From Novipirellula aureliae (GTDB taxonomy: Bacteria > Planctomycetota > Planctomycetia > Pirellulales > Pirellulaceae): 64,000 bases of DNA. The stretch spans positions 372,001 through 436,000 of the forward strand of contig NZ_SJPY01000005.1 in NCBI RefSeq assembly GCF_007860185.1, in the 5' to 3' direction. Position 1 is the first letter of the stretch, and each line of letters begins with the position of its first letter. A program made the position numbers and the translations under genes. Positions 8,683 through 50,814 of the stretch are shown here, in pieces. The notes below the pieces were generated by a model. It saw only the letters and a list, made by a program, of their open reading frames with translations, made no database searches and was not told the DNA's origin.

Positions 8683-8753
8683 CCAGCTGAATCAAATTCG
8701 CTACTACCTCGCTCCTTTCTCTTCACGACTAAAAAACAGGGACAATACAACGA

Positions 8754-12358: not shown

Positions 12359-12412
12359 AAAGCGAAAATAGTCACCAGCTGAACACCTGATTCCCCCTTT
12401 TTATCCAGTCAC

Positions 12413-22950: not shown

Positions 22951-24802
22951 TCGCGCCGGTGTAGTACGAATCCGACAAGTGTGGCGTGCTGATGACGCGG
23001 TACTTGTTGCGGTGCGGGTTGTCGACTGGAATCTTGGTCGGTGAACCCTGGGCGTCCATCATCAACTGGGCCGATCCCATTAACAGTTCCGCTTCGGTTT
23101 CCAGCTCGACAGGAACCACCAAGTACTCGGGCCGAATGTTGATCGGCTTTTGATCTTTGGCTTTCGACCCTGGACCCGCCTTCTGCTTGCGGAACGTCGT
23201 CTTGGCAACGGTCAGGCTGTCGGCACCGAACTTGGTGTCAGTTCCAGTGAGCAAGTTGCCGTTGCCGGCCGCGAAGAACCCAGAATTCTTCAAGAGCAGC
23301 GTGAAGAACAGATCGTCGATCGACTCGGCACCCGAGCGACCCATTTGACGCGGGATATCCATGAAGGCCGACAAATCATCATTGATGATATCATGCCGAG
23401 TGAGCATCAAGATTTGACCGTAGGTGTCGGCCTTGTTGCTGTACTTCTGCTCCGACAACTTTCCGTGCTTCAGTTCACCGTCTGGAGCGACCTGTTCGAA
23501 ACCGCCCGTTCCGAGCAAACGGTAACGCGAGACTTCCTTGAAGTCCGACACCGTTCCCACGCTACACAGATCAAACGCAGCGATTGGTGTGTTGGTGTAA
23601 GCCGCCAACAGCGTCTTGTTCATCACGTTTTCAAGGATGCTCGGCAGACTCATCGTCGAGAAGCCAGCGCGGATCGTGGCAGTCCCGTCACCGAAGACGC
23701 GAGGAACGTCGATCCCTTCCATACGAGCGCACTCGGCGACCAGTTCCTTTAAGCCGATGTGACGCATCGGATCAGCCTGGTTCAAAGTGCGTTCACCATA
23801 ACTGGCCAGTAGCGTCTTCTCGTCGATACCGACCGAAAGACACGCCGCGGCTTCGAGGATTTCACGGGTAAAACTCGGCTTCGATGCAGATTGCTCGGGC
23901 ACCTTCGGTCGTTCACTTCTCAGCACAGCAAGCTCCGTTTTGGTGACGCTCCATCCATGTTCGATCGCATCGGCCTCGATGTCGGAGTACTTGCCGGCAC
24001 ATATCTTGCGAATGCCGGCGATCCGGCGTGACTCCGTTGCCGCTTCGGCCCGCATTTGATCGACCGCGGACGAGTCTTGGTTCGTTTTTGGCTTCGTGCT
24101 CATATTCAAACTAGCATTAACGGGTTCGAGATCGTCCATGTTTTCCGTGGTTTCATCAGGATCATCGGTATGTTGACCTGCGGCGACGCGAGCTTCTGTG
24201 TCATCGTCGGCACCCAGTGCGACGAAGCTCACCTCGCCAAGCGTCGACTTGCGAGCGACGTAGACTGGGCCGCTGAATTCTCGTCCGTTCGCTTTCGCAG
24301 TCTTGCCTTCAGGGATGAAGACAACCTTGTCGGCACTCGCCCCGAGCGACGCTTGCCATGGGAATCCGTTTTCGCTGGTAGCGATCACTTCCTGCGCGGT
24401 CGCTCCGACGCCCGAGATCGTGCCAGCGACTTCGAGCGACTTGTCGGTGATCGCGATGTCGTCGGTGTGTCCGACGATGCTTCCACGATCGTGGTCTTTC
24501 AGGATTGGTCGCGACTTGCGAGTCACCCGCATACCGGCCAAGTCGACGACGACTGGGTAGGGCCAACCTCCCAGTCGCATCGCACCGCCGGTGTAAGCCG
24601 TCATTGAAAACTTGCGCAGCGAAGGCTTGCCTTCTTCCGGCGTTTCGGCCGCGGCGAGAGTAATCGTCGCCGCATCATCACAAACGATTCGCAGTGAACT
24701 GGGGACATTGTTAGTCTTGAGTCCGGAGTCTTGAGTCTGGAGGGAATCCTCTTCGCTACAGACTACAGACTGATAGCTACGGACTGGCGTTGTCTTCGGC
24801 AT
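22892..24802 (-). CDS. Prohead protease-major capsid fusion protein, C-terminally truncated
   Basis: The N-terminal part is a prohead serine-protease domain (PILKDHDRGSIVGHTDDIAI with the catalytic-type His; NGFPWQASLGASADKVVFIP with Ser). A long linker leads to an HK97-like capsid domain (RMEGIDVPRVFGDGTATIRA ... LTRHDIINDDLSAFMDIPRQ ... KYRVISTPHLSDSYYTG). Such fusions are known in Mu-like and transfer-agent-like phages. The start at 24802 (MPKTTPVRS) has GGAAG before it and overlaps the portal gene. After KAWYLFA the frame runs into TGATCCELAQ and stops, so the last strands of the capsid are missing, which would prevent assembly. Confidence 0.8.
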   Translation of the reverse strand: MPKTTPVRSYQSVVCSEEDSLQTQDSGLKTNNVPSSLRIVCDDAATITLAAAETPEEGKPSLRKFSMTAYTGGAMRLGGWPYPVVVDLAGMRVTRKSRPILKDHDRGSIVGHTDDIAITDKSLEVAGTISGVGATAQEVIATSENGFPWQASLGASADKVVFIPEGKTAKANGREFSGPVYVARKSTLGEVSFVALGADDDTEARVAAGQHTDDPDETTENMDDLEPVNASLNMSTKPKTNQDSSAVDQMRAEAATESRRIAGIRKICAGKYSDIEADAIEHGWSVTKTELAVLRSERPKVPEQSASKPSFTREILEAAACLSVGIDEKTLLASYGERTLNQADPMRHIGLKELVAECARMEGIDVPRVFGDGTATIRAGFSTMSLPSILENVMNKTLLAAYTNTPIAAFDLCSVGTVSDFKEVSRYRLLGTGGFEQVAPDGELKHGKLSEQKYSNKADTYGQILMLTRHDIINDDLSAFMDIPRQMGRSGAESIDDLFFTLLLKNSGFFAAGNGNLLTGTDTKFGADSLTVAKTTFRKQKAGPGSKAKDQKPINIRPEYLVVPVELETEAELLMGSAQLMMDAQGSPTKIPVDNPHRNKYRVISTPHLSDSYYTGASGKAWYLFATGATCCELAQ

Positions 24803-26264
24803 TGTCTTCCGTGACCTTGGTTGAGGGTTGGGGTTGTGTTTCATCGCTGGCCGATAGACCAAGCTCACGCATCAGCGATACTTCTTTGGCACGCTGTTTG
24901 AGTTCCGTCTCCCAATCACGCCCCTGCCGCGCAAATTCGATGGCCAGAGTAGTCGTATGATTTGAGAGACGGATCTTTTGGGCGTTGGCTTCTTTGGCGG
25001 GATCCACATGCTCGTGACCATCCCAAAACCATTGATGCTCGAACGTCGAGTCGAGCGTGCGAAGCGAATTGGGCAGATAGCCCTCGATGAGGATGGCTTC
25101 GCGAAGCCAAGCATTCAACAAGCGATCCAGAACGACGCGAGCGAGTTGGGTTTGCTCAACACGGATCGATTTGAAGTAGGTTTGGTGATCGAGCCGCCCA
25201 CTGGCGTAGTTGTAACCGCTAGAATTCCCAGCAGCGACATTGAATGGCATATTCAAACAACGAGCGATCTCGTTGAGGATCTCTTTCTTGAACTCTGCGT
25301 ATGTGGTCGAAGGTTGCTCCGACCTCATTTGAGCCATCTTCCATCCGCCGGGCATCGTGAGCAGCATTCGCTTCTCGAGTTCGATTGGCTCGAATGGTTC
25401 GGCAGCGTCGGCTTCACCATTGGCCGGCGCGTCGGTGTAGAGAATCCCGGCGAAATCGGCGGCCGTTTCGGCAGCCGCAAGTACCGCGAGCGTGAACCGG
25501 CGAAGTTGTGCGAATAATGGCAGTGCCGGCGTGATGTCGGGAATACCACGAATCTGTCCCGGCCGATCACAACGGAAATAGTGCAGCACCGCGGCGGCAG
25601 GCACCGTGTCATATCTTTCGTCGCTCGTGAACGTTACATCGCCAGGATGCTCGCGAAGCACGTCGTAGCTGATCGCGTTTCCGTCGGCATCAAACTGAAT
25701 GCCGTCGATGTATCGTGAGCGGTCCGCGACCAGCGTCGGCGAGGCGACTTGGTCTGCCTCAATTAGTCGCATGTCGAGTTTTACCGTCGTGTCGACACGT
25801 TCGTTGCTGGTCAGCAATCCAAACGATTCGCCATCGGAAACACGAGCCAGCCGCATCGTTCGCAGCTTTTCGGCCAAACCAACCGCTTCGGCCCAAGCGA
25901 AAAACTCTGCTTCAACAAAACGATTCGCGGCATCATCCGGCGTCCGCATTTGCAAACGCGGTCCAGTGCCAACGACATCATTCGCCAGCGTCAATGTTAT
26001 CCCGCGAGCGTAGCTGTTATTCGCGACCTCGTATCGCGAACGATTGCGAAGCGTTCGCCTCACGTCAGGACTATTCGCCGCGGCGGCCGACAGACCATCA
26101 GCACGGGACCAATGTTTCATGTTGTCGAGCGTCGTATTCGCAGCGTCGTACTTGGCACGAAGCCGCGAAAAAAAGGGCTGCCGGGGCGAGCGTCCAGAGG
26201 TGGCAGAAGGAGACACATTCCCGCCACGCAATTGCTCGATTATCCCTGACAGACGTTTCAGCAT
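24777..26264 (-). CDS. Phage portal protein, lambda type
   Basis: 495 residues from MLKRLSGIIEQLRGG. The lambda-family portal pattern is clear: YEVANNSYARGITLTLANDV, VGTGPRLQM, FRCDRPGQIRGIPDITPALP, TYAEFKKEILNEIARCLNMP and VAAGNSSGYNYASGRLDHQT. The portal forms the dodecameric DNA entry ring of the head. AGCAAGG precedes the ATG at 26264; in-frame codons further upstream are unconserved. It follows the head-joining gene and overlaps the capsid gene, an intact head-module order. Confidence 0.88.
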   Translation of the reverse strand: MLKRLSGIIEQLRGGNVSPSATSGRSPRQPFFSRLRAKYDAANTTLDNMKHWSRADGLSAAAANSPDVRRTLRNRSRYEVANNSYARGITLTLANDVVGTGPRLQMRTPDDAANRFVEAEFFAWAEAVGLAEKLRTMRLARVSDGESFGLLTSNERVDTTVKLDMRLIEADQVASPTLVADRSRYIDGIQFDADGNAISYDVLREHPGDVTFTSDERYDTVPAAAVLHYFRCDRPGQIRGIPDITPALPLFAQLRRFTLAVLAAAETAADFAGILYTDAPANGEADAAEPFEPIELEKRMLLTMPGGWKMAQMRSEQPSTTYAEFKKEILNEIARCLNMPFNVAAGNSSGYNYASGRLDHQTYFKSIRVEQTQLARVVLDRLLNAWLREAILIEGYLPNSLRTLDSTFEHQWFWDGHEHVDPAKEANAQKIRLSNHTTTLAIEFARQGRDWETELKQRAKEVSLMRELGLSASDETQPQPSTKVTEDNAEDNASP

Positions 26265-26325
26265 CCTTGCTTGTTCCTGTTGCCGTCCCCGGCAGCCCTT
26301 TTGGTCGTGTTGTGTGACAGAGAAA

Positions 26326-26523
26326 TCAGCCAGCCGATGGCGGCACGATCTTGTTAAACCGCAAACCGCGATTCGGCTTACGAACGGCATCTTTACTAGC
26401 GAGATGTTTGTCGGCCGCGATCTGTTCGGTCAACTTGTGCTGTTCGACCGACCCCGCATCGCCCGAAGCCTTCGCAGGCCCGGTGGCGTTTTCGTGAATC
26501 TCGTCTTCGAGGTTGTTTGGCAA
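26326..26523 (-). CDS. gpW-like head-to-tail joining protein (TTG start)
   Basis: About 65 residues read MPNNLEDEIHENATGPAKAS, then VEQHKLTEQIAADKHLASKD and RGLRFNKIVPPSAG. This short charged protein normally lies between terminase and portal in such phages. A TTG at 26521-26523 fits the conserved N-terminus, but no good ribosome site remains upstream, probably because the region was replaced when the HD-HSP90 gene was inserted. A longer reading to 26622 has a non-conserved N-terminus. Confidence 0.55.
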   Translation of the reverse strand: MPNNLEDEIHENATGPAKASGDAGSVEQHKLTEQIAADKHLASKDAVRKPNRGLRFNKIVPPSAG

Positions 26524-26927
26524 AGGCTCGCAACTGCGTTGGTGTAAGTGAGTAGGCTCTCTACCCCTTGAACTACTCTCACCCGAGGCATTCTGGCGGA
26601 ACGCCAGGGAAAAAAGATGCAATTTCGCTTGCGCAGCTTCATTTAGTTGCAGTTCCCGAAGCTATGGCGAAGTTGATACGGCCGGCAGGGTGGCGGTCCG
26701 GCCTCAATCCACGAACTCCCGTTCCCAAGAGTGCTAAAACTCATCGGCACGCTAGCTTTTGGCACCAATATCTCGTTCCAAGAGCCGGTAGGCCCTCTTG
26801 TAATACGATGCGGGGACTTCTAGCCCAGCGGATACTGCATCAAAGCGAGGTATGTTGGGACGGAGTCACGGGACCGTCCAACGCTCCGAACGATGAAGCC
26901 GGAGCATGCCGGAGAAAAGAGAAATCG

Positions 26928-26948
26928 GCTCCGGCGTCGGCCACCGGA
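26928..26948 (+). repeat. Left copy of a perfect 21-bp inverted repeat around the HD-HSP90 gene
   Basis: GCTCCGGCGTCGGCCACCGG plus A here is the exact reverse complement of 30499-30519. The two copies enclose 27116-30298, the only large foreign-looking insert in the head module. The match does not extend inward or outward by eye. Confidence 0.85.
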
Positions 26949-27115
26949 ACGCTGAAACCGACCTGCAACTCCGCAAAAAAAAGTCCGCGTACCTTTTCCT
27001 CACCCGTACCTTTTTCCCGCCCTAAGCGGATAACCTCCGCTGTGCTATGCTTGCGGGAGAAAACACCGGCATACAAATTGTACTCGACCGACAGCACGCT
27101 TTCAGGAACGCATAG

Positions 27116-30100
27116 ATGCACGACCTCCCTACATGCAAGCTTACCTCGAGGCTTGAAGCGACAAGCAAGGACTCAACACTACCTAGCACTCTTGATTCGA
27201 TCGTTCGCAATTTCGCATCACATGTCGCTCCACTACTAGCACAAACTAATCAGCTATTCGACGAGTTTACGCCACATGACGAGTCCAATCACATCCAATC
27301 ACTATTTCGCATAGTAGATGAGTTGCTCGACAGCAAGGTCGAACAGCTGAACGGTGTGGAAGCATGCATATTGGCATGCTCTATTTACGGCCATGACTGG
27401 GGTATGGCAGTGAGTAACGATGAGAAATCTGCCATCGTGACCGGCAAACCACCGCAGCACACTGCATTTGCACTTCTTCCAAAGGAACACCACCTATGGT
27501 CCCAATTTGCGAACGAAGCAGGCATCGAGACAAATCAATTTGGGTTTGTGAGGGAGGAGGCAATGGTAGAAAAGGAATTGTGGCGAAACTATGTGCGTCT
27601 GACTCACGCCGAACGGAGCAGGCAACGGATTGAAGCGTATTTCAAGGAAGACACTCGGCATCTCGGTATCGCAGTCGGTGAAGTTTCAGCCGCTCACGGC
27701 ATGGAAATCTCGGATATTCGATGCATGGGCGAGAAGAGGCCGGTGGCTGGAAAACAAGTCAACTTGAAGGCTCTTGCCATTTACATGCGGCTCATTGACC
27801 TCCTGGACATCGGAAGCAATCGAACCCCATATTCTTTGTGGAAATTCGTGAATCCGAAAAACATGTACTCCGCTACCGAATGGAAGAAACATCACATCCT
27901 TGATGCGGTGTCGATCGACTCATGCGAAGAAGCCAACATCCCCAGGCAGATATGCGTACACGGCAAGACATCTGATCACAGACTCTTCTCTGCACTGCTT
28001 GATCTCAAACGCTATTGTCACGCTCAAATTGAAGAAAACATCCAGGCATTGCGTGCATGTTTGAACTATGGACTGGGAAACATCGAACTGGACTGGCAGG
28101 TGCAACCGGTAGGTTTTGTCCCAATAGATATCCGTTTCAAATTCGATCGGACAGCCATGATCAAATTGATTGGTGGGGAAATCTACGATAGCGACCCTTA
28201 CGTGTTTTTACGAGAGTTGCTTCAAAATGCAATCGATGCCACTCGCTTAAGGGCAGATCTTTACAAGGCCGACAATGACGCTTCGCCAGGAAGACAGTCG
28301 ATACGGTTTGTCGTTACGCACGATAACGCCGGAAATCCAACTATATCGATAACGGACGACGGTGTGGGGATGGATCAATATATCGTCACTGAGTATTTGG
28401 CATGCATCGGAAAAAGCTACTACATAAGCAAAGATTTCGAGAGGCTTAAAAGCGAAATTAAACCCATCTCACGATTTGGCGTTGGGTTGCTGAGTTGCTT
28501 TGAGGTAGCGGATTTAGTTACAATACAAACAAGAAAAGATCCCAGGTGGGGATCTTCCGAAGGGCTTCTGGTTGAAATCTCGGAGCCTACACAGCAATTT
28601 CGTGTCAGCAACTTAGGCGAAAACACGGGCCCAATTGGCACGTCGGTAGAGGTAGTACTGTCAGAACAAAAGCTAACTAATAGTTGGCTTGCAAATTGCG
28701 GGGGCTTCAATGCGACAAGTTACCTTAAGTCGTTAGCGGGGTTCTGCCCCACGCCCATCCTCATCGATGAAGGGGGCATGCATACTTTGATTGTCTCTGC
28801 CGATTCGACCGCTGAAGAGTGCAAGAACCTCAGCCTTCAATACCCCGCGTATGAGCTCTACAAACACTCCAATTATCCGCTTCCCGAAATCTACATTGAT
28901 GCGATTGCTCAAGGGCATTCAGGAGTTTTGTATACCGAACGGCAACTAACATTCTGCCGCACGATTGATGGCATTGAATTCAGTGGCACGATCAGATTCC
29001 TTGAACCATCCGACGATCTGTTAGAATCATACGTTATTGAAGGGGTCGGCCAATGGGGCACCAATGCTTCTGTCAAAAACCTAACAAACACAGTCCATGT
29101 TCGCTGGCCGTCGCCGCCCCCAAGCCCTAGCAATCCAACTAGTGACGACTGTGTCCCTCCTAGCATACGGTCCAAAGATAACGTAGATGTCTTTGTTCAG
29201 GGAATCAAGGTGCCTGAGTGCAATTTTGAAATGCAATGTTTTGCTGGTGGCAGTCCAAGACCTCACTTCGCGGTAAACCTCAATCCTGTCGCCACGGAAT
29301 TGAAGGTAACATTGTCACGAAGGGCGATCCGCAATTCAATTGATCCGGTACGTAAAATTGTCTTTGATACAATCAACGATTATGTGCGAAAGACGTTTGG
29401 CAATGACTTCGAAAAAGGTAATTTAGCTGAACGTTGTCGTGTCGTCGCTCGAGTCAAACGCTATTGGCCATGTGAGATCGGCAATGTATTTCCAATGGTT
29501 AGTTTTCCTATCGGCGTATTTCATGGCAATGGCGAACTATTTCTCAAAACTGTTGGAGAGCTTCCAAACGAAATCGAGACTGTCTCCAACGCATTCATGA
29601 CTGACCGTCGCCATTCTAAGCAATGGCCAGACATTGAGAAATGGCTCAAAGGTGTTCGCTGTGACTCAGAACGTGTCCTAGGCCATGGTCGTGAAGTTGT
29701 AGTGGACAGCCTTGGATTCTGTTATCGTGATAATGTTGCAGCAGAATGGCTTTCACTCAGCGCAGTGTTTCGCAACATAATCTCGAGAGTTTTTGAAGTA
29801 ACTGGATTCCATGGACACTTGATAGACGGCGACTATCACCTGTTCACGCTCCGTCGAAAAAGAGAAGTTTTTGCTGAACGCGAGACGTTTCATTTAGGAT
29901 ATTCAAAATTTAAAGCTTTTCCGATTTCGGGGGAAATGAGTGATTGTGTTTGCGTCCTGTCCATCGAGAGCAGGTTTAGCAGATCGTCGATATTGTGTAC
30001 ACACTTCAACTCGCTTCACCCGGCTGCACCTGCCATACAGCGAGCGTTTTGTCGATACGAATCGGATCGTTCGCGACTGAACAAAGCGGAACAAAAGCGT

Positions 30101-30298
30101 CTAGAGATCTTCTATGAAGAGCTTAGTTTGTGGAGGACGTCCTATCAGAATTATCGTGGTGGTCGGTTCGAAAATATTCTTCCAGAATGGCTCAAGACCT
30201 TCTGCTTGCTGTGTGTCGAATGTAGCCTATGTGAGTTTACTGAATCTGAAATGGAGGCCCTCTCCGGGCCGATGCGTGTGGAAATTTGCTATCGCTGA
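27116..30298 (+). CDS. HD-domain plus HSP90-like (GHKL) ATPase, putative anti-phage defence protein
   Basis: 1060 residues. The N-terminal ~300 form an HD-type domain (HDESNH at 54-59, YGHDWGM at 91-97, THAERSRQR near 163, YMRLIDLLDIGSNR near 223), the arrangement described as HD-CE in conflict systems. Next is an HSP90-type ATPase: ELLQNAIDAT (367-376), ITDDGVGMD (412-420) and RFGVGLLSCFEVAD (453-466). The C-terminal ~500 residues are unrecognised. HD plus HSP90-like fusions are associated with bacterial immunity in the literature. The gene runs opposite to the phage operon, looks more A/T-rich and is flanked by a perfect inverted repeat, so it appears to be cargo. The mode of action is unknown. 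Confidence 0.75.
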   Translation: MHDLPTCKLTSRLEATSKDSTLPSTLDSIVRNFASHVAPLLAQTNQLFDEFTPHDESNHIQSLFRIVDELLDSKVEQLNGVEACILACSIYGHDWGMAVSNDEKSAIVTGKPPQHTAFALLPKEHHLWSQFANEAGIETNQFGFVREEAMVEKELWRNYVRLTHAERSRQRIEAYFKEDTRHLGIAVGEVSAAHGMEISDIRCMGEKRPVAGKQVNLKALAIYMRLIDLLDIGSNRTPYSLWKFVNPKNMYSATEWKKHHILDAVSIDSCEEANIPRQICVHGKTSDHRLFSALLDLKRYCHAQIEENIQALRACLNYGLGNIELDWQVQPVGFVPIDIRFKFDRTAMIKLIGGEIYDSDPYVFLRELLQNAIDATRLRADLYKADNDASPGRQSIRFVVTHDNAGNPTISITDDGVGMDQYIVTEYLACIGKSYYISKDFERLKSEIKPISRFGVGLLSCFEVADLVTIQTRKDPRWGSSEGLLVEISEPTQQFRVSNLGENTGPIGTSVEVVLSEQKLTNSWLANCGGFNATSYLKSLAGFCPTPILIDEGGMHTLIVSADSTAEECKNLSLQYPAYELYKHSNYPLPEIYIDAIAQGHSGVLYTERQLTFCRTIDGIEFSGTIRFLEPSDDLLESYVIEGVGQWGTNASVKNLTNTVHVRWPSPPPSPSNPTSDDCVPPSIRSKDNVDVFVQGIKVPECNFEMQCFAGGSPRPHFAVNLNPVATELKVTLSRRAIRNSIDPVRKIVFDTINDYVRKTFGNDFEKGNLAERCRVVARVKRYWPCEIGNVFPMVSFPIGVFHGNGELFLKTVGELPNEIETVSNAFMTDRRHSKQWPDIEKWLKGVRCDSERVLGHGREVVVDSLGFCYRDNVAAEWLSLSAVFRNIISRVFEVTGFHGHLIDGDYHLFTLRRKREVFAERETFHLGYSKFKAFPISGEMSDCVCVLSIESRFSRSSILCTHFNSLHPAAPAIQRAFCRYESDRSRLNKAEQKRLEIFYEELSLWRTSYQNYRGGRFENILPEWLKTFCLLCVECSLCEFTESEMEALSGPMRVEICYR

Positions 30299-30498
30299 CA
30301 AGACTACTCGCTTAACACATATTCGACCAATTACACCATCACTTTGTCGGCGAAGAAAAAAAGGTTCCAAGTAAGAATAAGTACCAAGACTCAAAGCAGG
30401 CAATCGCTTGCGGTCCCGTACGTTACAACTCACTATTAGCCGACAAAACTGGACGAGTTCCTCAGGCCGGCGCAAGTCTTTCCAAGCGGCGTAGACTC

Positions 30499-30519
30499 TC
30501 CGGTGGCCGACGCCGGAGC
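30499..30519 (-). repeat. Right copy of the 21-bp inverted repeat
   Basis: TCCGGTGGCCGACGCCGGAG plus C, the exact inverse of 26928-26948, lying between the HD-HSP90 stop and the terminase stop. It marks the right border of the inserted segment. Confidence 0.85.
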
Positions 30520-30556: not shown

Positions 30557-32818
30557 TTATCCCTTCTTTCGGCGTTGAAGCTCTTTGAAACTAACTCGTT
30601 CGCGACGGCTAGCCACATGATTATCCGTCCCAAACAGCAACGCACCCTGCATCGAAGCTCCAACGGCACATCCGACAAGACAATCGAGCCAGTGATTGTC
30701 GGGTTGCTCTGGCCTCGCCTTCCATTCGTCCACAGTTCGTCCGCGCCCCTCTGTCTTGACGAAGTATTCGGCGGTGACTTGCTCGGCGAACAGGCGGTGT
30801 TGCTCGGCGCGGTCGCCGAAGATGGAAAGGCAACCGCGATCGCCCATCGCGACGGCGAGTCGGGCGTGCGTGAACGACTTCCACCAATTCGTGTCGTAAA
30901 TGACGTGGCGGATCGCTCGCTTGCCGTGGACCGAGGGGACTCGCCAGTTGAGGCCAACTCGATCGCCAGGCCGACGTTTGTATTCGCTGAAAGGACTAGA
31001 GGATGCGCCAACAAAACGACCGTGTGAAGGAAGAAGGATCGATGCGTGGGGACTTTGTCGGCAGAACTGGTAGACGACGTTGGTGGAGTGGCCCCAGTTG
31101 GCGTCGATGAGGCAGCGTTCGATCTTCATAGCCGCGCCGTCGTCGCGTTGCCATTCTCGGCCGAGCAAGTCGGTGGTCAGCTTTTCCATGCCGGCATAGA
31201 GCGAGCCTTCGAGGCCGGTGCCTTCGGTCGCGAGCGTGTGCCTGGCGTCGCGGAGCGTGAAGTAGGGACGCTTCTGATCGGGGAATGATCCGTAATCGAC
31301 GACGTAGCCGGTGAAATCGTCCTCCCAGGCGGCGACAACGTAGAACAGTAGTTTGCCCTGGACGTCGATGAAAGCAGTGAGATGGTTGCCGGAAATCGGG
31401 ACGCAACACCGACTCATTCCGTTGATCTTATTGGCGACTTGCTCGGCGGTGAGTTGGTCGGCATCTACGGTTTCTACCGGCAATGGTTCATTCTGGTACT
31501 CGGCGAAAAAGGCCGCTTCGTCTTGCAGCTTCAAATTCATTGCGTGTTGGATCGCCGACAGCTCGTCGTGATTGAAGCGTTGTTTCCATGAAACCTCAGC
31601 ACCTTCGTCCATTGCCCGGCGGTTCTGGCGATAAAACTCCGTACCCGCAGCGCCACCGTCGCCAGCACGCAAACCTTCGGCACGAATCTCGGCGTAGCGT
31701 TCCCACAGCGTTTCGTTGGTTGGGAACGAGTTGACCATTCGTGTCCTCGCACCGTTCCACTCGGGATGCTTGTCGCGGTCCAGAATGCTGTCAGCCATGT
31801 CGCCGGGGCGGATCACTGTGCATGGCATGATGCCGGAGATCTTTTTGCCAGGTCCGGCGAGTCCAAGCACCGCGCCAGCGAGGATCGCTTCACGGTTCGC
31901 GCATTGCGAAAGTGATCTCGCGGACTCGTCCGTCTGAGGGTCATCTAAGACAACCAACGAAGGTCTTACTGTCTTGCCATCAGGGCGTTTAAACTTCATG
32001 CCGCGGATGCGTCCGGTCAATCCGGCGACCTTGATAATTGCGCCGCTCGCCTTGCTGTCAGCGATCGTCGGTAGAACGACCTCTTTCGCGGTCCAGCCGA
32101 TTTGGGTTCGTTTGCCTTGATAGAGTTGTCCGTTGGCCCGGTTGGAGATGCCGTCCAACGCTTGGATTGGGAAACAGACCTCTGGGTAGTCGGCCAGTAG
32201 CAGTTCGTTGGCGTCCAGTTCGGTTTTGATTGAATCGAGCATGTCGCAAGCGTGACCTTCGTCGCTACCGATCAGGCAGACGAAATCACGATAGCCATTG
32301 AGCACTGCCCAGATGCAGGCAACCTCCGCAAGCGAACTCTTGCCACTACCGCGTGCCATCGCTAGCGAAAATAGTCCGCCGCGAACGACGGCTTCTTCAA
32401 TGCGCTCGATCACCTTCAAGTGGTCCGGCGACCAAGGCAGGTGAAACGTCAGCGAAAAATACGCCTCGCAGAAAAAGCGAAAGCTATTGGCTGCCATCGT
32501 TTTACGCTGCGGATCCTCAACGACTGGCAAGCCACCGATGTCGCGACCTGCCAGAGCGATCGCAGCGTTTCGTGCTCGAGCCTTGTCTTTAACCTTGCCG
32601 TAGGGATCTGCATCGGCAGGCGGGTTTGGTGTGTGGCGTTTCTCGATTAGCCAAGCAGTGAACTGCAACAAGTTCACGTGCGTTCCGTCACCGATGCGAA
32701 GGCCTGCTTCGGTTCGGTAGCGATAGAGCTGCCGTTCGTTGATCACCGTTGCCAGCGAAGTGCTATTGAGCGTTCGACAGCACTCGCTCGGCTTCATTCT
32801 AAGAATATCAATCGCCAC
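30557..32818 (-). CDS. Phage terminase large subunit
   Basis: About 753 residues from a GTG at 32818, chosen because GGAGA precedes it and it overlaps the upstream gene by 11 bp. The ATPase part has Walker A (AMARGSGKSSLAEVA) and Walker B (PSLVVLDDPQTDE). The C-terminal RNase H-like nuclease shows AFIDVQGKLLFYVVA and CLIDANWGHSTNVV with the expected acids. The terminase cuts and packages phage DNA into the prohead. Its N-terminal 60 residues (GDGTHVNLLQFTAWLIEKRH) resemble the small gene just upstream, so a small-terminase-like module seems built in. The 3' end is separated from the next head gene by the HD-HSP90 insert. Confidence 0.88.
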   Translation of the reverse strand: MAIDILRMKPSECCRTLNSTSLATVINERQLYRYRTEAGLRIGDGTHVNLLQFTAWLIEKRHTPNPPADADPYGKVKDKARARNAAIALAGRDIGGLPVVEDPQRKTMAANSFRFFCEAYFSLTFHLPWSPDHLKVIERIEEAVVRGGLFSLAMARGSGKSSLAEVACIWAVLNGYRDFVCLIGSDEGHACDMLDSIKTELDANELLLADYPEVCFPIQALDGISNRANGQLYQGKRTQIGWTAKEVVLPTIADSKASGAIIKVAGLTGRIRGMKFKRPDGKTVRPSLVVLDDPQTDESARSLSQCANREAILAGAVLGLAGPGKKISGIMPCTVIRPGDMADSILDRDKHPEWNGARTRMVNSFPTNETLWERYAEIRAEGLRAGDGGAAGTEFYRQNRRAMDEGAEVSWKQRFNHDELSAIQHAMNLKLQDEAAFFAEYQNEPLPVETVDADQLTAEQVANKINGMSRCCVPISGNHLTAFIDVQGKLLFYVVAAWEDDFTGYVVDYGSFPDQKRPYFTLRDARHTLATEGTGLEGSLYAGMEKLTTDLLGREWQRDDGAAMKIERCLIDANWGHSTNVVYQFCRQSPHASILLPSHGRFVGASSSPFSEYKRRPGDRVGLNWRVPSVHGKRAIRHVIYDTNWWKSFTHARLAVAMGDRGCLSIFGDRAEQHRLFAEQVTAEYFVKTEGRGRTVDEWKARPEQPDNHWLDCLVGCAVGASMQGALLFGTDNHVASRRERVSFKELQRRKKG

Positions 32819-33014
32819 GGTGTTTCTCCTGCAATAGCCAAGCGGTGTAGTCAACGACGTTGACCGTTCCGTCGGCGTTGGTTGGTGCGCCGGATTCAAT
32901 GTCGGCAGTGATTTTCTCAAGCGGCACGCGTTGTCTGTAGGCACTGCTTAACAATTTGGCGAGCTGTTCCACCGGTAGCCGTTTGACATTGATGGGTTTC
33001 GGTTTGTCTTCCAT
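32808..33014 (-). CDS. Small phage protein upstream of terminase (small-terminase candidate)
   Basis: 68 residues, VKRLPVEQLAKLLSSAYRQR ... ADGTVNVVDYTAWLLQEKHR. The DGTxNxxxYTAWL motif recurs in the terminase N-terminus, so the two share a short DNA-recognition-like domain. It overlaps the terminase start. It may be the small terminase subunit or an accessory to it; the evidence is position and the shared motif. Confidence 0.55.
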   Translation of the reverse strand: MEDKPKPINVKRLPVEQLAKLLSSAYRQRVPLEKITADIESGAPTNADGTVNVVDYTAWLLQEKHRGD

Positions 33015-33179: not shown

Positions 33180-33232
33180 CCAGAATTGAGTTGAGGTGTC
33201 CCGAAAGCCATGGCTTCATGTGTATTAACACG
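33180..33232 (+). promoter_or_regulatory. Repeated upstream element, copy 1
   Basis: TTGAGTTGAGGTGTCCCGAA is followed by CATGGCTTCATGTGT (33209-33223) and ACACGAACG. It is the most divergent of five copies placed 40-60 bp before the starts of plus-strand small genes, and here it precedes the amidoligase gene. It probably holds the promoter or an operator. Confidence 0.6.
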
Positions 33233-33263
33233 AACGAATTACACACCCTTCGGAGACACAAAC

Positions 33264-34124
33264 ATGCACGCCAACAACATCGCCTTCGGTATCGAATTCG
33301 AAACGACCTTGCCCTCGAACGACACAACGCCGATCGGCGGATACCACAACGGAACGCAGGTCCCTTGGCTGCCGACGGGATGGAAAGCCGAACGCGACAG
33401 CAGCATTCGAACGCTCGCCCCCAACCGCAAAGGATGCGAATTCGTATCGCCGAAACTTCGCGGCTACCAAGGGCTCCGCCAAGTAGAAGACGCCCTCGAC
33501 AAAATCAACGAACACGGCGCACGGGTAAACTACTCTTGCGGCGTACACGTCACGATCGAATTCAACGGCGACGCCGCGGCCCTTTCCCGCCTGATCAGCT
33601 TGGTCGGAAACCACGAACGAGCCATCTACGCATCGACGGGAACGAAACGACGCGAACGAACCAACTGGGCCAAAACGGTCAAAGCCTACGGCAACAAAGA
33701 CGAAGCCAAACGACGCTGCGAATCGGACCGCTACCACCTTTTGAACCTGACACACTTGGCTCGCGGCCGAAACCGAATCGAATTCCGGGCCTTCGCCGGT
33801 ACGACCAACAAGGCCAAGGCTCTCGGCTACATTCAAATGTGCATCGGCTTGGTAGAGCTCGCCTTGAATACAAAACGCTGCAGCGGATGGGACTACGCGA
33901 AAAAACCTGGAACCAAGAGCTGCTGGGATCGCCCCGGCGCGGGCGAAGGCGAAACGGAACTGAACCGGCTCTTCTACCGGCTCGGCTGGACCAAGGGTTG
34001 GTACAAGGGCGAACTGCGAAACAAACGGTTCGGCGAACTTTCGGCCGCCGACCAAACCTGCGACTGGAAGGCAACCAAAAGGAAACTTTTGGAAATGGCC
34101 CGTAAGTATGACCGGGCGGCTTAA
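33264..34124 (+). CDS. Amidoligase-family (ATP-grasp-like COOH-NH2 ligase) protein
   Basis: 286 residues from MHANNIAFGIEFETTLPS. The start is set by GGAGACACAAAC before 33264; an earlier in-frame ATG at 33210 belongs to the upstream element. FGIEFE, then KAERDSSIR, GCEFVSPKLRG, HVTIEFNGD and RIEFRAFAG follow the amidoligase pattern (Glu and Arg residues binding ATP-Mg and acid substrate). Family members join amines to carboxylates and occur in phages and mobile elements; the substrate here is unknown. It opens the plus-strand block and is divergent from the terminase operon. Confidence 0.8.
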   Translation: MHANNIAFGIEFETTLPSNDTTPIGGYHNGTQVPWLPTGWKAERDSSIRTLAPNRKGCEFVSPKLRGYQGLRQVEDALDKINEHGARVNYSCGVHVTIEFNGDAAALSRLISLVGNHERAIYASTGTKRRERTNWAKTVKAYGNKDEAKRRCESDRYHLLNLTHLARGRNRIEFRAFAGTTNKAKALGYIQMCIGLVELALNTKRCSGWDYAKKPGTKSCWDRPGAGEGETELNRLFYRLGWTKGWYKGELRNKRFGELSAADQTCDWKATKRKLLEMARKYDRAA

Positions 34125-34299
34125 CGGCCGGCTCCCCGCCCGATTGACGCCGCGAACTAGATCGCGGCGTCTCTTCGTTTCTAGTGGGAACTTTGGGCAA
34201 CGTGGGGGCGAAACGGCATAGGTAAGTAATAGAAGGCCACTGTTATCGCTTGCTACACACGGTGCGTTCGTGGGCCACGTCGGCGAGATCCAGAAACAA

Positions 34300-34372
34300 T
34301 GAAAAAGACTGCAGATTCCTCTCGAAACTAGCTTGAGATAATCCGACATCCATGGCTCATGTGTGGACATAC
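34300..34372 (+). promoter_or_regulatory. Repeated upstream element, copy 2
   Basis: GAAAAAGACTGCAGATTCCT, then CTTGAGATAATCC and CATGGCTCATGTGT at 34351-34364, then ACGAAACG. The upstream GAAAAAGACTGC block is shared with copy 4. It precedes the gene at 34410. Confidence 0.65.
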
Positions 34373-34409
34373 GAAACGCATTTACTTTCACCCAAACGGA
34401 GAACCAAAC

Positions 34410-34685
34410 ATGACGCTTGAAACCCTGATCAACCTGTTGACCGAATACGCAGAAGAACACGGCGGCGACGCCGAGATACGGTTGATGACGCAGGAGAACT
34501 GGCCGTTCGAGAACCACATCGCTGGTGTTACCAGCGGCATCGAAATGAACCAGGCCAGCGAAGACGACCCCAGCGAGTACTTCGACGACCAAGACGTTGC
34601 CGAGGACAACACGATCTACATCGTGGAAGGGGGCCAGATCTGCTACGGCAGCAAACGGGCTTGGGAGACATGCCGCGATTGCTAA
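34410..34685 (+). CDS. Small acidic phage protein
   Basis: 91 residues (MTLETLINLLTEYAEEHGGD ... YIVEGGQICYGSKRAWETCR). CGGAGAACCAAAC before the ATG at 34410 is the ribosome site. It is rich in Glu/Asp, with Cys near the end. Acidic small phage proteins may act as inhibitors or DNA mimics, but nothing proves that here. Not recognised. Confidence 0.6.
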   Translation: MTLETLINLLTEYAEEHGGDAEIRLMTQENWPFENHIAGVTSGIEMNQASEDDPSEYFDDQDVAEDNTIYIVEGGQICYGSKRAWETCRDC

Positions 34686-34714
34686 TCGCGGCCAGCGAAA
34701 GTGAGTTTGGGAAA

Positions 34715-34785
34715 CCATTAGAAACTTTCCCGAACTCCGCTTGCTTGTTCTGAAACCGCATGGCTCATGTATGTCAACACAAACG
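34715..34785 (+). promoter_or_regulatory. Repeated upstream element, copy 3
   Basis: GAACTCCGCTTGCTTGTTCT and GAAACCG lead to CATGGCTCATGTAT (34759-34772) and ACACAAACG. It precedes the gene at 34818. Confidence 0.65.
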
Positions 34786-34817
34786 CATTTCCTCTTTCCA
34801 ACAACGGAGACCCAACT

Positions 34818-35027
34818 ATGGCAAAGAACACCGCTCGAGTCGAAGACGCTTACACCACCGCGCATGTCCGGGCATTGACCTTGCTCGAAGACCTTCACCA
34901 ACTCGTCGAAGACATGCCGGCCCCCGATGCCGACCATCCCATCAATTGGGAACACGTCGGATCGCTGCAGCACCTTTGCGAACGGCTCAAGGAATTGAAG
35001 GATTTCGTTGCTCCAGCCGGCGAATAG
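34818..35027 (+). CDS. Small helical phage protein, paralogue A
   Basis: 69 residues: AYTTAHVRALTLLEDLHQLV, INWEHVGSLQHLCERLKELK. Two or three amphipathic helices. The second half matches the gene at 36691 (LRWTHVRALNLVNAQLSEVA), so the two are paralogues within the same block. ACGGAGACCC precedes the ATG. Function unknown. Confidence 0.6.
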   Translation: MAKNTARVEDAYTTAHVRALTLLEDLHQLVEDMPAPDADHPINWEHVGSLQHLCERLKELKDFVAPAGE

Positions 35028-35189
35028 ATTCCCACCCGCAACCTTTCGGCCGCGCTCGCCAACGCGGCCGTTTCTCGTTGAATCGCCGCCGATGTTAGCC
35101 CGAGTTACGCGAGGTTGCCAACAAACGGCAAACCATGCCGACATCTTTTTCCGGCCCACAAACGCGAACGTCGGCGGCGTTTGGAAACA

Positions 35190-35268
35190 TCGAAAAAGAC
35201 TGCGAATTATTCCCAGGCTTCGCTTGCTGTGTTGCGAAATGCATGGCTCATGTGTTTTAACGCCAAAC
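35190..35268 (+). promoter_or_regulatory. Repeated upstream element, copy 4
   Basis: GAAAAAGACTGCGAATTATT, CGCTTGCTGTGTTGCGAAAT and CATGGCTCATGTGT (35242-35255), then ACGCCAAACG. It is the most complete copy and precedes the gene at 35310. Confidence 0.65.
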
Positions 35269-35309
35269 GGCAAAACGAGTTCAAACCCTTTTATACGAGA
35301 GACAAAACC

Positions 35310-35561
35310 ATGTCCATGAACGAAGCCCAAAAGACCAAAGTCGCCGCCCTTCGCACCGAGATTCGAAAGCTCGACCCGGAGACCTACCAAGAGATTCGCC
35401 AGTCGTACTACAAGATTGCCGACGAGCTTCGCCCCTTGGTCGACGCCCTCGAAAAGGCCGACGCGGACCTGGGACCGAACGGCCCGCTTTTGGAAGAGCA
35501 CTACATCTTTTGCGAGATGCTCGACCGGCTCAACAAGAGCCTCTTGGGCGCGGTTGTGTAA
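35310..35561 (+). CDS. Small helical phage protein
   Basis: 83 residues, MSMNEAQKTKVAALRTEIRK ... EEHYIFCEMLDRLNKSLLGA, almost entirely predicted helix with a charged first half. GAGAGACAAAACC precedes the ATG at 35310, which is preferred to in-frame codons upstream. No family recognised; its own copy of the upstream element suggests independent expression. Confidence 0.6.
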   Translation: MSMNEAQKTKVAALRTEIRKLDPETYQEIRQSYYKIADELRPLVDALEKADADLGPNGPLLEEHYIFCEMLDRLNKSLLGAVV

Positions 35562-35711
35562 CCCGCACGCAGCGAGGCAAACGCCGCGGACGGAACCGCG
35601 GCACGACTCGCAAGAACGAAAGCCGAAACGCAAACGGGCGTTGTCGCGGGTGGTTCCCGCGGCCTGACGATGGCAGCCATCCACGAACGAAACCCAAACG
35701 GAGAACGAACG

Positions 35712-36206
35712 ATGAAGAAGGCAGACGTAAAGATTGGCGGCGAATACTTCGCAACGGTCACCAACAAAAAGGTGACGGTGCGTATTGAAGCAGAAAACCA
35801 TAATGGAGGCTGGGACGCCACGAATCTTTCGACGGGAAAGAAGGTGCGAATCAAAACGGCCGGTCGGTTGCACGGTTTGGCGCGAGCCACTGTGACGCCG
35901 GCAACCGAAACGCCCGCAAGCGAAACGCGGGCACGAAAACGCGTCGAGAAGAAAACGAACGATAACGCCGGTGGCGAAAAGAAGCTCTCTTGCGTCAAAG
36001 CCGCGTTGAAGGTTCTGACCGACAGCGGCGAACCGATGAACTCGCAAGAGATGATTACCGCGATGGTCGACGCCGGACTGTGGGAAAGCCCTGGCGGTAA
36101 GACTCCGCACGCCACGCTGTACTCGGCGATCCTCCGCGACATGAAACGCGGCGATGAAAGCCGCTTCGTTAAAACGGAACGAGGCCGGTTCACGGCGAGA
36201 GCATAG
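35712..36206 (+). CDS. HARE-HTH domain protein
   Basis: 165 residues. The N-terminal ~60 (KKADVKIGGEYFATVTNKKV) form a small beta domain, then a Thr/Lys-rich linker. A C-terminal HARE-HTH winged helix follows (SCVKAALKVLTDSGEPMNSQ, EMITAMVDAGLWESPGG, HATLYSAILRDMK, FVKTERGRFTARA). HARE-HTH domains link DNA-modification enzymes, RNA polymerase and chromatin factors, so a DNA-binding or regulatory role is likely. GGAGAACGAACG precedes the ATG at 35712. Unlike its neighbours it lacks the CATGGCTCATG element and sits 9 bp before the next gene. Confidence 0.8.
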   Translation: MKKADVKIGGEYFATVTNKKVTVRIEAENHNGGWDATNLSTGKKVRIKTAGRLHGLARATVTPATETPASETRARKRVEKKTNDNAGGEKKLSCVKAALKVLTDSGEPMNSQEMITAMVDAGLWESPGGKTPHATLYSAILRDMKRGDESRFVKTERGRFTARA

Positions 36207-36215
36207 GACGAAGCC

Positions 36216-36449
36216 ATGAAGTTTATTTGCGACGTCCGCCAGGTCAACGACTTGGCCGAAGGAGAAACCGCAGCGCCCGAACCCGACATGGGTTACGAAC
36301 TGCGGTCGATTGCCGGCTACAACTTTGAAGCCGGTTTGGTGGAATACTTGGTCCGCCACGGAGACGTGATCTTTGCGAGGACAATAGCCGGCGAAGAGTT
36401 CGCGATCACGGGCAGGAACGCCCATGTTTTGGTGCCGCTCGGCTTCTAG
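36216..36449 (+). CDS. Small acidic phage protein
   Basis: 77 residues, MKFICDVRQVNDLAEGETAA ... EYLVRHGDVIFARTIAGEEF. It follows the HARE-HTH gene by 9 bp and is probably co-transcribed with it. A small beta-rich protein by pattern; not recognised. Confidence 0.55.
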   Translation: MKFICDVRQVNDLAEGETAAPEPDMGYELRSIAGYNFEAGLVEYLVRHGDVIFARTIAGEEFAITGRNAHVLVPLGF

Positions 36450-36591
36450 TCCGAACATCGCCGACAACGCCCGACGTTCAAAACGTGCGGGCGTTTCGTC
36501 GTGACTGGCGTAACAACGCGGCGCACCCGAGCGACGCCACACGCGGCAACGTCGCGGGCAATCGTATTCCGACGACAAACATGTTGAAGTT

Positions 36592-36656
36592 TTGGAATGT
36601 TTCGAAGACTTCGCTTGATGTGTTGGCAAATCCATGGCTCATGTGTGGTTGTACGA
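36592..36656 (+). promoter_or_regulatory. Repeated upstream element, copy 5
   Basis: GAAGACTTCGCTTGATGTGT, TGGCAAATC and CATGGCTCATGTGT (36633-36646), then ACGAACG. It precedes the gene at 36691. Here the ATG inside the element is in frame with that gene. Confidence 0.65.
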
Positions 36657-37499: not shown

Positions 37500-38810
37500 T
37501 CAGCGCATATTCTCCTCACGCTTGCCGACGGGGATCGGTGATTCGCCGGTCCGTTCCAATATCGCTGGTTTGCCGGTGAATCGTTGGTAGCGGTCGACGA
37601 TCACGTCACAGTACGGCGGATCGAGTTCCATCAAGAACGCCTTGCGTCCGGTTTGCTCCGCGCCGATCAATGTTGATCCGCTGCCGCCGAACAAGTCAAG
37701 CACATTGTCGCCCCTGCGAGACGAATACTGCATTGCCTTCACAGCGAGTTCCGCCGGTTTGCCGGTCAGGTGTTCCAATTGTTGTGGCGGAATCTTTTTG
37801 ATGTGCCAAAGATCGGTCGCGTTGTTTGGGCCGAAGTACTTGTGGCCCGCCCCTTCACGCCATCCGTAGAATGCCCATTCGTGGGCACCCATGAAATCCT
37901 TTCTCGTCATGACCGGGTGCATCTTGTCCCAGATGATGGCTTGCGAAAAATACAAGCCGTTTGATGACAACACGGGTGGATAGTTTGCGATGTTCGAAAA
38001 GCCTCCCCAGATATAGAAGCATCGGCCGGGTTCCAAAACGCGAGCGATGTTGCCGAACCAGGCTTTCAACAGCCGATCGAACTCCTCGTCCGAAACAAAG
38101 TCGTTGGCCAGTGGTCGGTCCTTGGCACGCATCTTCTTGGGACCGTCTTTGGTCTTGCCCTTGCCAGCTTCGAAGGAACTGTTGCCGGCCGCGATTGCGT
38201 TCTTGCTACGAGGTTCAACCTTCACGTTGTACGGCGGGTCTGTATTGCACAATTGAATCGTCGCGCCATTCAAAAGCCGGTCCAGGTCTTCGACGCTGGT
38301 CGAGTCACCACACATCAAACGGTGATCGCCGAGGATCCAAATGTCGTCACGTTGAGTGATAGCGTCGTCGGGCGGCTCAGGGACATCATCGGGATCGGTC
38401 AATCCTTGGCCGACACCGGGATCAAGCAGCATCGACAGTTCGTCGGCATCGAAACCGAGCAGTTCACAATTGAAACCTGCGTCTTGCAACGCTCCCATTT
38501 CGAGTGGAAGTAGATCAAAATCCCATTCGGCGTTCTCGCCAGTACGATTGTCGGCGATCCGGTAGGCGCGGACCGCGTCGGGTTCCATGTCCCGTGCGAC
38601 GTGAACCGGGACATCGGTCAACCCGATTTTCTTGGCGGCTTTGAACCGGGTGTGACCAACGATGATGACGCCGTCGGTGTCAACGACGATCGGCTGGCGG
38701 AAACCGAACTCATTGATGCTCTGAACGACCGCGTCAACGGCATCGTCATTCAAACGCGGATTATTCTCGTAAGGCTTGATTCGATCAAGCGACCACATTT
38801 CGACCTGCAT
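37500..38810 (-). CDS. ParB-domain DNA methyltransferase (DPPY type)
   Basis: 436 residues. An N-terminal ParB/Srx-like domain (IKPYENNPRLNDDAVDAVVQ, IIVGHTRFKAAKKIGL) is followed by an amino-methyltransferase with NTDPPYNVK (catalytic motif IV) and, late, VLDLFGGSGSTLIGAEQTGR (SAM-binding motif I). This order is the beta class, methylating adenine N6 or cytosine N4. The same fusion is frequent in phages, where it modifies phage DNA against restriction; no partner nuclease is seen. It follows the small gene at 38921 by about 110 bp and converges with the plus-strand block. Confidence 0.88.
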   Translation of the reverse strand: MQVEMWSLDRIKPYENNPRLNDDAVDAVVQSINEFGFRQPIVVDTDGVIIVGHTRFKAAKKIGLTDVPVHVARDMEPDAVRAYRIADNRTGENAEWDFDLLPLEMGALQDAGFNCELLGFDADELSMLLDPGVGQGLTDPDDVPEPPDDAITQRDDIWILGDHRLMCGDSTSVEDLDRLLNGATIQLCNTDPPYNVKVEPRSKNAIAAGNSSFEAGKGKTKDGPKKMRAKDRPLANDFVSDEEFDRLLKAWFGNIARVLEPGRCFYIWGGFSNIANYPPVLSSNGLYFSQAIIWDKMHPVMTRKDFMGAHEWAFYGWREGAGHKYFGPNNATDLWHIKKIPPQQLEHLTGKPAELAVKAMQYSSRRGDNVLDLFGGSGSTLIGAEQTGRKAFLMELDPPYCDVIVDRYQRFTGKPAILERTGESPIPVGKREENMR

Positions 38811-38920: not shown

Positions 38921-39157
38921 TTACTTTTCGTTTGCCGGCGGTTGCTCTTCGCGGACATCACCGAACTCGAGCGAGAATGGATCGAGCTCAACGACTTTGC
39001 CGTCTCGCCACACGACGATTGGCGTGTTGTGTTGGCGGGCGCGAAGCAGCACATCGTTGGTCGACGGCTCCATCGCCGCATTTGCTTTTACATAATCTCT
39101 GGCGTGTCGTAGTGAATCACAAAAGTCGTTCCGAAACAACTCGACAACACCAGCCAT
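38921..39157 (-). CDS. Small phage protein coupled to the HEAT-DMP19 gene
   Basis: 78 residues, MAGVVELFRNDFCDSLRHAR ... TPIVVWRDGKVVELDPFSLE. The start codon shares a base with the preceding stop (TAATG), so the two are translated together. The C-terminal half resembles short proteins described only as phage hypothetical. A helper or antidote to the upstream gene is conceivable, but that is speculation. Confidence 0.55.
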   Translation of the reverse strand: MAGVVELFRNDFCDSLRHARDYVKANAAMEPSTNDVLLRARQHNTPIVVWRDGKVVELDPFSLEFGDVREEQPPANEK

Positions 39158-49571: not shown

Positions 49572-49595
49572 TCCCCCGTAATACCCGTATTACCC

Positions 49596-49670: not shown

Positions 49671-49674
49671 ACTT

Positions 49675-50781: not shown

Positions 50782-50814
50782 ATCGTCACTACATAATTTT
50801 CGTCAGGTGATTAG

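Follow-up and report, generated by a model that had tools for sequence, protein, structure and literature searches.

A gene framed by inverted repeats in a prophage head module

In the window, which here means the whole 64-kb stretch of DNA analysed, a gene for a 1060-aa protein (27116..30298, plus strand; ORF list, Pfam) lies antisense to a phage operon. The landing site of this gene is bordered upstream by the terminase large subunit gene (30557..32944, minus strand; Pfam GpA_nuclease, 4.4e-26) and downstream by a 98-aa ORF (26326..26622, minus strand), labelled gpW-position ORF by its place only. A lambda-family portal protein is encoded at 24777..26390 (minus strand; Phage_portal_2, 1.3e-57). 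Left arm A, GCTCCGGCGTCGGCCACCGGA (26928..26948, plus strand), is the exact inverse of right arm A (30499..30519, minus strand), which lies 37 nt past the terminase stop. Both the gene arrangement and the perfect 21-bp inverted pair described in the first-pass annotation were thus confirmed. At up to 3 mismatches to the 21-mer the window holds two sites in 64 kb and 100 shuffles gave none; a chance pair was set aside. The host genome (7.27 Mb) contains three sites at this threshold, the third (2 mismatches) being 315 bases off an end of contig C23, and an additional imperfect site (L332) is interrupted by an IS-like element. The G+C content of the cassette is 48.1%, compared to 56.7% and 56.4% in its flanks. 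Near the cassette no Rfam match exceeded the threshold (single match, E 0.29), and a longer hairpin pattern had zero matches in the window.

The cargo protein contains an HD-CE domain (residues 48-309, 27257..28042, plus strand; PF24391, 4.6e-41), scoring 141.7 bits against a curated cut-off of 27, and a GHKL/HSP90-type ATPase domain (residues 365-475, 28208..28540, plus strand; PF13589 HATPase_c_3, 5.6e-06) with 26.9 bits against a cut-off of 25. In addition, a three-sequence profile matched the N domain of Endoplasmin (Hsp90) with 5.2e-16 over profile positions 345-564. Across the window protein and two full-length relatives, the key residues of the GHKL boxes, E367/N371/D374, D414/G416/G418, and G455/G457, are identical in all three sequences, and H54, H59, H93, D94, H164, H194, D228, and D231 are unchanged in the two relatives. 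Judged by sequence, the N, G1 and G2 boxes of the Bergerat fold are present, as in HSP90-like/GHKL proteins, and the earlier assignment of an HD domain plus all three HSP90-type ATPase boxes holds. The structure predicted from the three-sequence input had a mean pLDDT of 37. Compared with PADLOC-DB 2.0.0, the protein gave no match at 1e-8 and no full-length model match; the best partial matches were RT_UG24 (5.8e-08) and REase_II (2e-05). A role of the gene in protecting bacteria from viruses is probable. The encoded protein most likely acts in immunity: its HSP90-type ATPase would sense infection or a client in an altered state, and its HD domain, which has a phosphohydrolase or nuclease fold, would be the effector.

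Facing copies, cassette ends and cargo exchange

The 21-mer is the core of an imperfect palindrome of ca. 23 nt. Within the host's family the 21-mer was counted 69 times, in 28 of 149 genomes, while a slightly longer 23-mer pattern was found in 0 of 290 sampled genomes from other families of the phylum. As far as sampled, the cassette family is restricted to the host's bacterial family. In searches of an open-licence library, no paper on this repeat was found. Among 33 neighbour pairs, 25 are convergent, 2 divergent and 6 tandem (P=1.4e-9 for the facing bias against an expected 1/4), the facing pairs coming from 14 sources, i.e. 13 genomes and one viral contig. The repeat frames other cargo in related genomes too. 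The possibility raised at first pass, that the 21-mer is a common dispersed repeat unrelated to the insert, applies in its first part, as the repeat is dispersed, but not in its second, because it is rare per genome and its facing copies surround different cargo.

A second palindrome, hairpin B, GCTCCGAACGATGAAGCCGGAGC (26883..26905, plus strand; 2 mismatches to the B consensus), lies just outside the left arm; of 96 arm copies, 16 have B on their outer side at a distance of up to 150 nt and 3 have it on their inner side. Within the arms, the left (26949..27064, plus strand) and right (30345..30498, minus strand) subterminal regions resemble, in register, the ends of other cassettes. The left end reached local scores of 52 and 45 with the L190 and L153 ends (best of 19 shuffles 33, reverse-complement control 22), the right end 70, 54, and 47 with the L166, L175, and L194 ends (30 and 25, respectively). 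BLAST between the inner ends of different loci returned 42 same-strand and 0 opposite-strand matches, of which 27 of the 42 were within 5 nt of register. Cassettes with unrelated cargo thus have similar inner ends in register, both window ends included. Motif S is present as a left copy AAGTCCGCGTACCTTTTCCTC (26981..27001, plus strand) and a right copy GAGTCTTGGTACTTATTCTTA (30372..30392, minus strand), with 2 and 4 mismatches to GAGTCCNSGNACCTTTTCTTC, both window ends being among those from which the motif was derived. It occurs in a single orientation in 16/16 matches at 3 mismatches and in 23/23 at 5, 10 of these 23 stemming from arms outside the derivation set. Under cross-validation, a profile built from all inner ends did not hold up (8 bits or more in 1 of 276 held-out scores), hence the inner ends represent subfamilies at best; an iterated profile that includes its own training ends was for this reason left out of the evidence.

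At 1e-8, 11 of 20 cassettes scanned matched PADLOC models, the window's own not among them. The contrast between inside proteins (16/30) and the nearest outside proteins (1/10) is modest (P about 0.018). Scanned as whole sets, the inside ORFs matched 195 PADLOC families and the outside ORFs 142; defence genes (DISARM, BrxHI-like) also occur among the latter, and some cassettes carry non-immune cargo (RND pump, EF-hand, DUF3179). At one orthologous site, two genomes of the same genus carry unrelated cargo, NsnA-like in one and IetA/IetS in the other, and homology breaks off no more than 3 nt from the arm on either side, which indicates a precise cassette exchange at this site. In a third genome (G006) the repeat is absent there, as is a clean empty site. 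L196/L199 is a one-sided case of homology stopping at the arm; homology ends between loci fell on arms in both in 21 of 468 cases. No consistent target duplication was observed in 25 pairs (mean shared length 2.04 nt vs 1.47, P about 0.02, longest 4).

These observations bear on an unlikely but still appreciable alternative, in which the palindromes are outward transcription terminators, or insulators, that close horizontally acquired units and travel with the cargo instead of being recombination sites. Runs of at least 6 T in 12 nt follow 22 of 96 arm copies in the outward reading and 1 of 96 in the inward reading, the left arm of the window was flagged as terminator-like on the minus strand, and the C/T variation within the palindrome preserves G-U or A-U pairing on the outward strand. 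The terminator scan, though, showed no excess over shuffles (3 vs 4.0), and the right arm of the window has no T-run. Terminators would also predict many tandem neighbours, where 6 tandem pairs stand against 25 facing ones, and leave both the stop of homology at the two arms and the conserved inner ends with motif S unexplained.

Candidate mobilising enzymes and the terminase-gpW junction

Among the 25 of 102 Pfam families listed for the 75 ORFs inside cassettes, neither a transposase nor a recognisable shared recombinase was present. RAYT-like proteins are encoded in 91 of 148 genomes of the family, and one such protein, named by eye, adjoins arm 1637 in L153. This proximity, together with the frequent opposite orientation of paired REPs, would suit a model in which REP elements, mobilised by a RAYT/Y1 transposase, account for the palindromes, and the facing pairs represent REPINs that were stretched and frame genes by chance. 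We consider this improbable, as an arm was found in just 1 of 30 RAYT loci, the query itself (short loci, 106 kb in total), and a RAYT/Y1 transposase was rejected as the mobiliser. Moreover, copy number is low (3 in the host genome), the partners lie kilobases apart, and no flank is conserved next to the palindrome in 78 non-redundant copies, i.e. there is no GTAG/CGTC tag, whereas the host has a different, GTAG-tagged palindrome cluster within the window. A home-made RAYT profile from a crudely chosen set matched 59 residues of the window ORF 42925-44676 and was not used. A conserved 202-aa protein adjoining single arms (L163) was judged by eye to be no transposase, and the termini of an IS4-like element, GAATGGCAC, are unlike arm A.

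Relatives of the prophage were collected by their terminase (n=80), and 73 have a recognisable ORF at the gpW position. The junction between the two genes is no longer than 500 nt in 57 of the 73 and holds cargo in the other 16, the window's own contig included. None of the other 15 cargo-bearing relatives has the HD-CE/HSP90 gene there, so that it is no conserved core gene of the phage lineage, the second possibility raised at first pass; related prophages lacking it have either the short junction or other cargo, including AbiEi/AbiEii, STAND-type, PD-Lambda-2-like, or TacA-like.

Alternatively, plain homologous or illegitimate recombination at a hotspot for cargo might have brought the gene into the phage, with an accidental repeat pair. 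In 8 of 10 cargo-bearing chromosomal junctions (among L264-L279) no arm copy was detected at up to 4 mismatches, and in L027 the terminase 3' end occurs twice, as does a gpW-position ORF; both points favour such a route. It is nevertheless the most doubtful of the alternatives weighed here, as the single insert is framed by two of the three sites in the genome, both of its inner ends are related to other cassettes, and five prophages or remnants (the window, L027, L195, L197, and L272) have arms within 100 nt of the terminase stop. Integron attC sites, judged on the facing rather than direct orientation of neighbours, and a classical transposon were set aside.

A non-autonomous cassette and its relation to known systems

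The locus is likely to be a mobile immune cassette that is non-autonomous and, in the manner of dif modules, relies on an enzyme supplied in trans to act at its palindromic sites. The initial proposal that a defence gene moved as one cassette into phage head genes is supported as far as movement is concerned by the pairing of the repeat, the similarity of the ends, the exchange at one site and the variable phage junction, while its antiviral role, like the trans-acting enzyme and the division into sensor and effector, is what we infer. The segment 26928-30519 would be one member of a family in which each cassette has facing palindromes of ca. 23 nt at its ends, subterminal sequence inside, and a single unit of cargo, in many cases an antiphage system, but no recombinase that could be recognised. 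An enzyme encoded elsewhere, either a site-specific recombinase or a transposase, may use the palindromes to insert, remove or exchange cassettes, leaving no target duplication. By occupying the variable terminase-gpW junction, the cassette would be carried by the phage as a moron.

Bacteria of the host's family may thus swap immune genes as ready-made units in repeat-framed cassettes. More tentatively, and with the balance slightly against it, the palindrome and the putative trans-acting enzyme could form a dedicated exchange system for immunity cassettes, by which chromosomes and prophages would trade single immune units. If true, this would assign exact borders to mobile immune units among bacteria whose defences have been little studied, and anything between two facing copies, such as the HD-CE/HSP90 protein, would be a candidate system that can be found by position alone. 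It would also give phages a route to gain a host-type immune gene as a moron, and the identity of the cassette-moving enzyme would now be directly testable.

Mobile insertion cassettes such as MIC231 carry passengers between terminal inverted repeats without a transposase, are thought to be moved in trans, and have ends that match a resident IS. The cassettes described here likewise hold cargo between inverted ends, with no transposase among the Pfam families listed, but the one resident IS examined, the IS4-like element, does not end in arm A, and the 25 pairs had no consistent target duplication. In PMC13141974, Acinetobacter dif (pdif) modules of plasmids and chromosomes are described as cargo between inversely oriented short sites, without a recombinase and exchanged between replicons, and PMC10132070 describes an IS family that targets their sites. 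Our cassettes share the inverse orientation, the absence of a common recombinase (among the 25 of 102 Pfam families listed) and an IS4-like element that targets the site. They differ in their hosts and in the often antiphage cargo, and their site, a G+C-rich palindrome of ca. 23 nt, has by eye little resemblance to the 28-bp XerC/XerD consensus. REP/REPIN elements are also short intergenic palindromes in which pairs of opposite orientation are common (PMC3733652); the family described here differs from REP/REPIN and RAYT by the missing terminal tag, the few copies, the kilobase spacing with genes in between, and the lack of RAYT linkage in 29 of 30 loci. Alternative antiphage systems at a fixed phage junction are known from hotspots of P2/P4 type prophages and satellites (PMC9122126), whereas here another phage lineage and the terminase-gpW junction are concerned and some of the cargo has its own palindromic borders. 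With regard to the cargo protein, the closest parallel drawn is VcSduA, a GHKL-type Shedu and tested antiphage protein whose GHKL ATPase domain is thought, according to PMC12137116, to control its nuclease. Both proteins have a GHKL ATPase domain; instead of the PD-(D/E)xK nuclease of VcSduA, the cargo protein has an N-terminal HD-CE domain preceding the ATPase.

The window cassette and its arms

The cassette at 26928-30519 is a member of a family of arm-bordered cassettes, so that the mobile unit proposed in the first-pass annotation not only holds but widens. As described there, its arms at 26928-26948 and 30499-30519 form an exact 21-bp inverted pair, which is not expected by chance (0 of 100 shuffles, up to 3 mismatches). 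The gene between them (27116-30298, plus strand) encodes a 1060-residue protein in which the HD and HSP90-like domains were recovered as HD-CE and GHKL/HSP90-type ATPase matches, and it indeed runs against the phage operon of terminase, small gpW-position ORF and portal. The G+C content of the insert is 48.1%, compared to ~56.5% in its surroundings. Two loci of an uncultured Aquimarina hold full-length relatives of the protein (34% identity), and Shewanella has a partial relative (49%); a plasmid search returned one partial match, and a phage search matches in the ATPase region only.

Gene content, such as PF07638 sigma factors in relatives, would fit a host among planctomycetes of the Pirellulaceae kind. 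With as many as 3 mismatches tolerated, the host genome contains three arm sites. Tolerating no more than 2, 69 sites occur in 28 of 149 same-family genomes (3 for a reversed control pattern), and flanks were retrieved for all of them. In a draw of 294 genomes across the phylum the 23-base form was found in the host alone at this threshold, being absent from the three other family members drawn and from the 290 genomes sampled outside the family. Conservation across 78 non-redundant copies extends over ~24 nt in the form of an imperfect palindrome, its inner part being conserved partly by construction because copies were selected by matching it, and no conserved flank at fixed spacing was found beside it. 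Hairpin B, a second palindrome present at the window left arm (26883-26905), is found on the outer side of the arm, no more than 150 nt away, in 16 of 96 copies, and on the inner side in 3.

The window has other repeats: a 15-base tandem repeat (2685-2759), a 96-base repeat pair (12409-12608) and, clustered at 48836-52970, palindromes with a GTAG tag (GTAGTGGATCTTGTTAAAGATCC) that occur in both orientations, resemble classical REP/REPIN units and differ from the arm palindrome.

Facing pairs, inner ends and exchange

Among copies at up to 3 mismatches with neighbours 200-10,000 bases apart, 25 pairs are facing (convergent), 2 point apart and 6 are in tandem, an excess of facing pairs over the random one in four with P = 1.4e-9; two further apart-pointing pairs are spaced by less than 200 bases. 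The facing pairs come from 13 genomes and one viral contig and span 0.4-9.3 kb (median 5.5 kb, only pairs fitting the fetched flanks being detectable). Their contents differ, which answers the earlier question whether the repeat flanks other cargo in related genomes.

Comparison between loci of the 300 nt inside each arm gave 42 same-strand and no opposite-strand matches, including a few orthologous or same-genome pairs, and 27 of the 42 begin at the same arm distance within 5 nt. The window left end is most similar to ends in L190, L153, L155 and L184, the right end to L166, L175 and L194, both well over shuffled and reverse-complement controls. Motif S, a subterminal motif read from these alignments, has 22 matches in 1.117 Mb when no more than 3 mismatches are allowed. 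Of these, 16 lie within 220 nt inside an arm, a zone holding 2.2% of bases, and all 16 point inward (7 are from arms outside the derivation set). At 5 mismatches, 23 of 81 lie in this zone, all inward (10 from outside the derivation set), and 4 outside. As one profile built from all ends together did not withstand cross-validation, the ends appear to form subfamilies.

Exchange of content is seen between L162 and L183, from two genomes of one genus. Identity of the outer flanks (84% and 89%) ends within 3 nt of the inner edge of each arm, and the cargo between is NsnA-like in one and IetA/IetS in the other; in the third genome of the genus in the set, this place lacks arms and shows no clean empty site. 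In another genus (L196 and L199), a 1,543 bp outer flank at 93% identity ends at the arm in both genomes. Overall, 21 of 468 ends of between-locus homology fall on arms in both partners, arm surroundings making up 0.4% of bases. The 25 pairs show no consistent target duplication. Within single genomes, outer flanks of 450-560 bp are repeated among L164, L165 and L166, and between L153 and L154; each stops at the arm and the insides differ.

The palindrome is itself split by a ~1.5 kb element with a transposase judged IS4-like by eye, at L157:2165-3790, L272:7080-8700 and L180:5040-6720, each with an exact 11-bp duplication of the palindrome centre, and imperfectly at a further host-genome site, L332.

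Cargo and the prophage junction

No gene common to facing segments of different genomes, which would suggest a shared enzyme, was found in a comparison of their contents or among the 25 of 102 Pfam families listed for 75 inside ORFs. With PADLOC at 1e-8, 16 of 30 large proteins from 19 segments match antiphage-system models, the kinase and methylase models being generous. Matches fall in 11 of the 19 segments, or 11 of 20 counting the window's own protein, which fails this cut-off. They include ThsA-like SIR2, Dsr1-like, Avs2 with a viperin-like protein, Avs4-like, Pycsar cyclase, IetA/IetS, NsnA, class I pAgo, GajB-like helicase, type IIG restriction and PD-T4-6-type kinases. One of the ten nearest outside proteins matches; outside ORFs as a set also contain defence families. 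Non-immune inside cargo includes an RND pump, EF-hand and DUF3179. Pfam also gave an HD-CE match in one inside ORF (5.6e-30), for which a local profile indicates L153:1939-3486; both ends of this L153 cassette resemble those of the window. A 902-aa protein, NACHT NTPase-like by eye, lies inside a single arm at L198:470-3178.

The window cassette lies between terminase (30557-32944, minus strand) and a 98-aa gpW-position ORF (26326-26622, minus strand). A search by terminase similarity retrieved 80 contigs, of which 73 have this ORF, and in 57 of the 73 the junction is short, with at most 500 nt before the ORF. The other 16, the window's own contig included, carry cargo, as do 10 of 18 chromosomal junctions, a set overlapping these contigs. 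Among the junction cargo identified in relatives are AbiEi/AbiEii, a phosphorylase-STAND protein, a kinase-WD40 protein accompanied by a sigma factor, a TacA-like pair and a PD-Lambda-2-like protein, besides metabolic genes, for example a transporter set and one for a thiamine-binding protein. In five prophages or remnants (window, L027, L195, L197, L272), at most 100 nt separate an arm from the terminase stop. Given this mix of cargo and these arms, the palindromic cassette is one route by which cargo enters the junction, though not the only one.

In the viral relative L027 a cassette occupies the same junction (5714-8870), the terminase 3' end is duplicated after the right arm and there are two gpW-position ORFs. 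A terminase C-terminal remnant (93% identical) lies close to the end of another host contig, C10 (L262:8038-8568), with no arm at up to 5 mismatches. In the window, terminase adjoins a 1136-aa ORF (33225-36635) with no Pfam match at 0.001, and the prophage region also encodes a ParB-N and N6_N4_Mtase protein (37500-38810) and a HEAT-repeat and DMP19 protein (39157-40611).

Comparison with known systems

In the best model, a trans-acting site-specific recombinase or transposase would work on the facing palindromes. The action of XerCD on dif modules, as excerpted from PMC13141974, offers a model for this, and we do not claim that the cassettes belong to these modules. Insertion sequences are known to target pdif sites (abstract of PMC10132070), as the IS4-like element does the arm palindrome here. 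In the 1060-residue protein, an HSP90-type ATPase acting as sensor is most likely coupled to an HD domain as effector; the nearest worked example we have seen for such putative coupling is VcSduA, a tested GHKL-nuclease defence protein, as described in an excerpt of PMC12137116.
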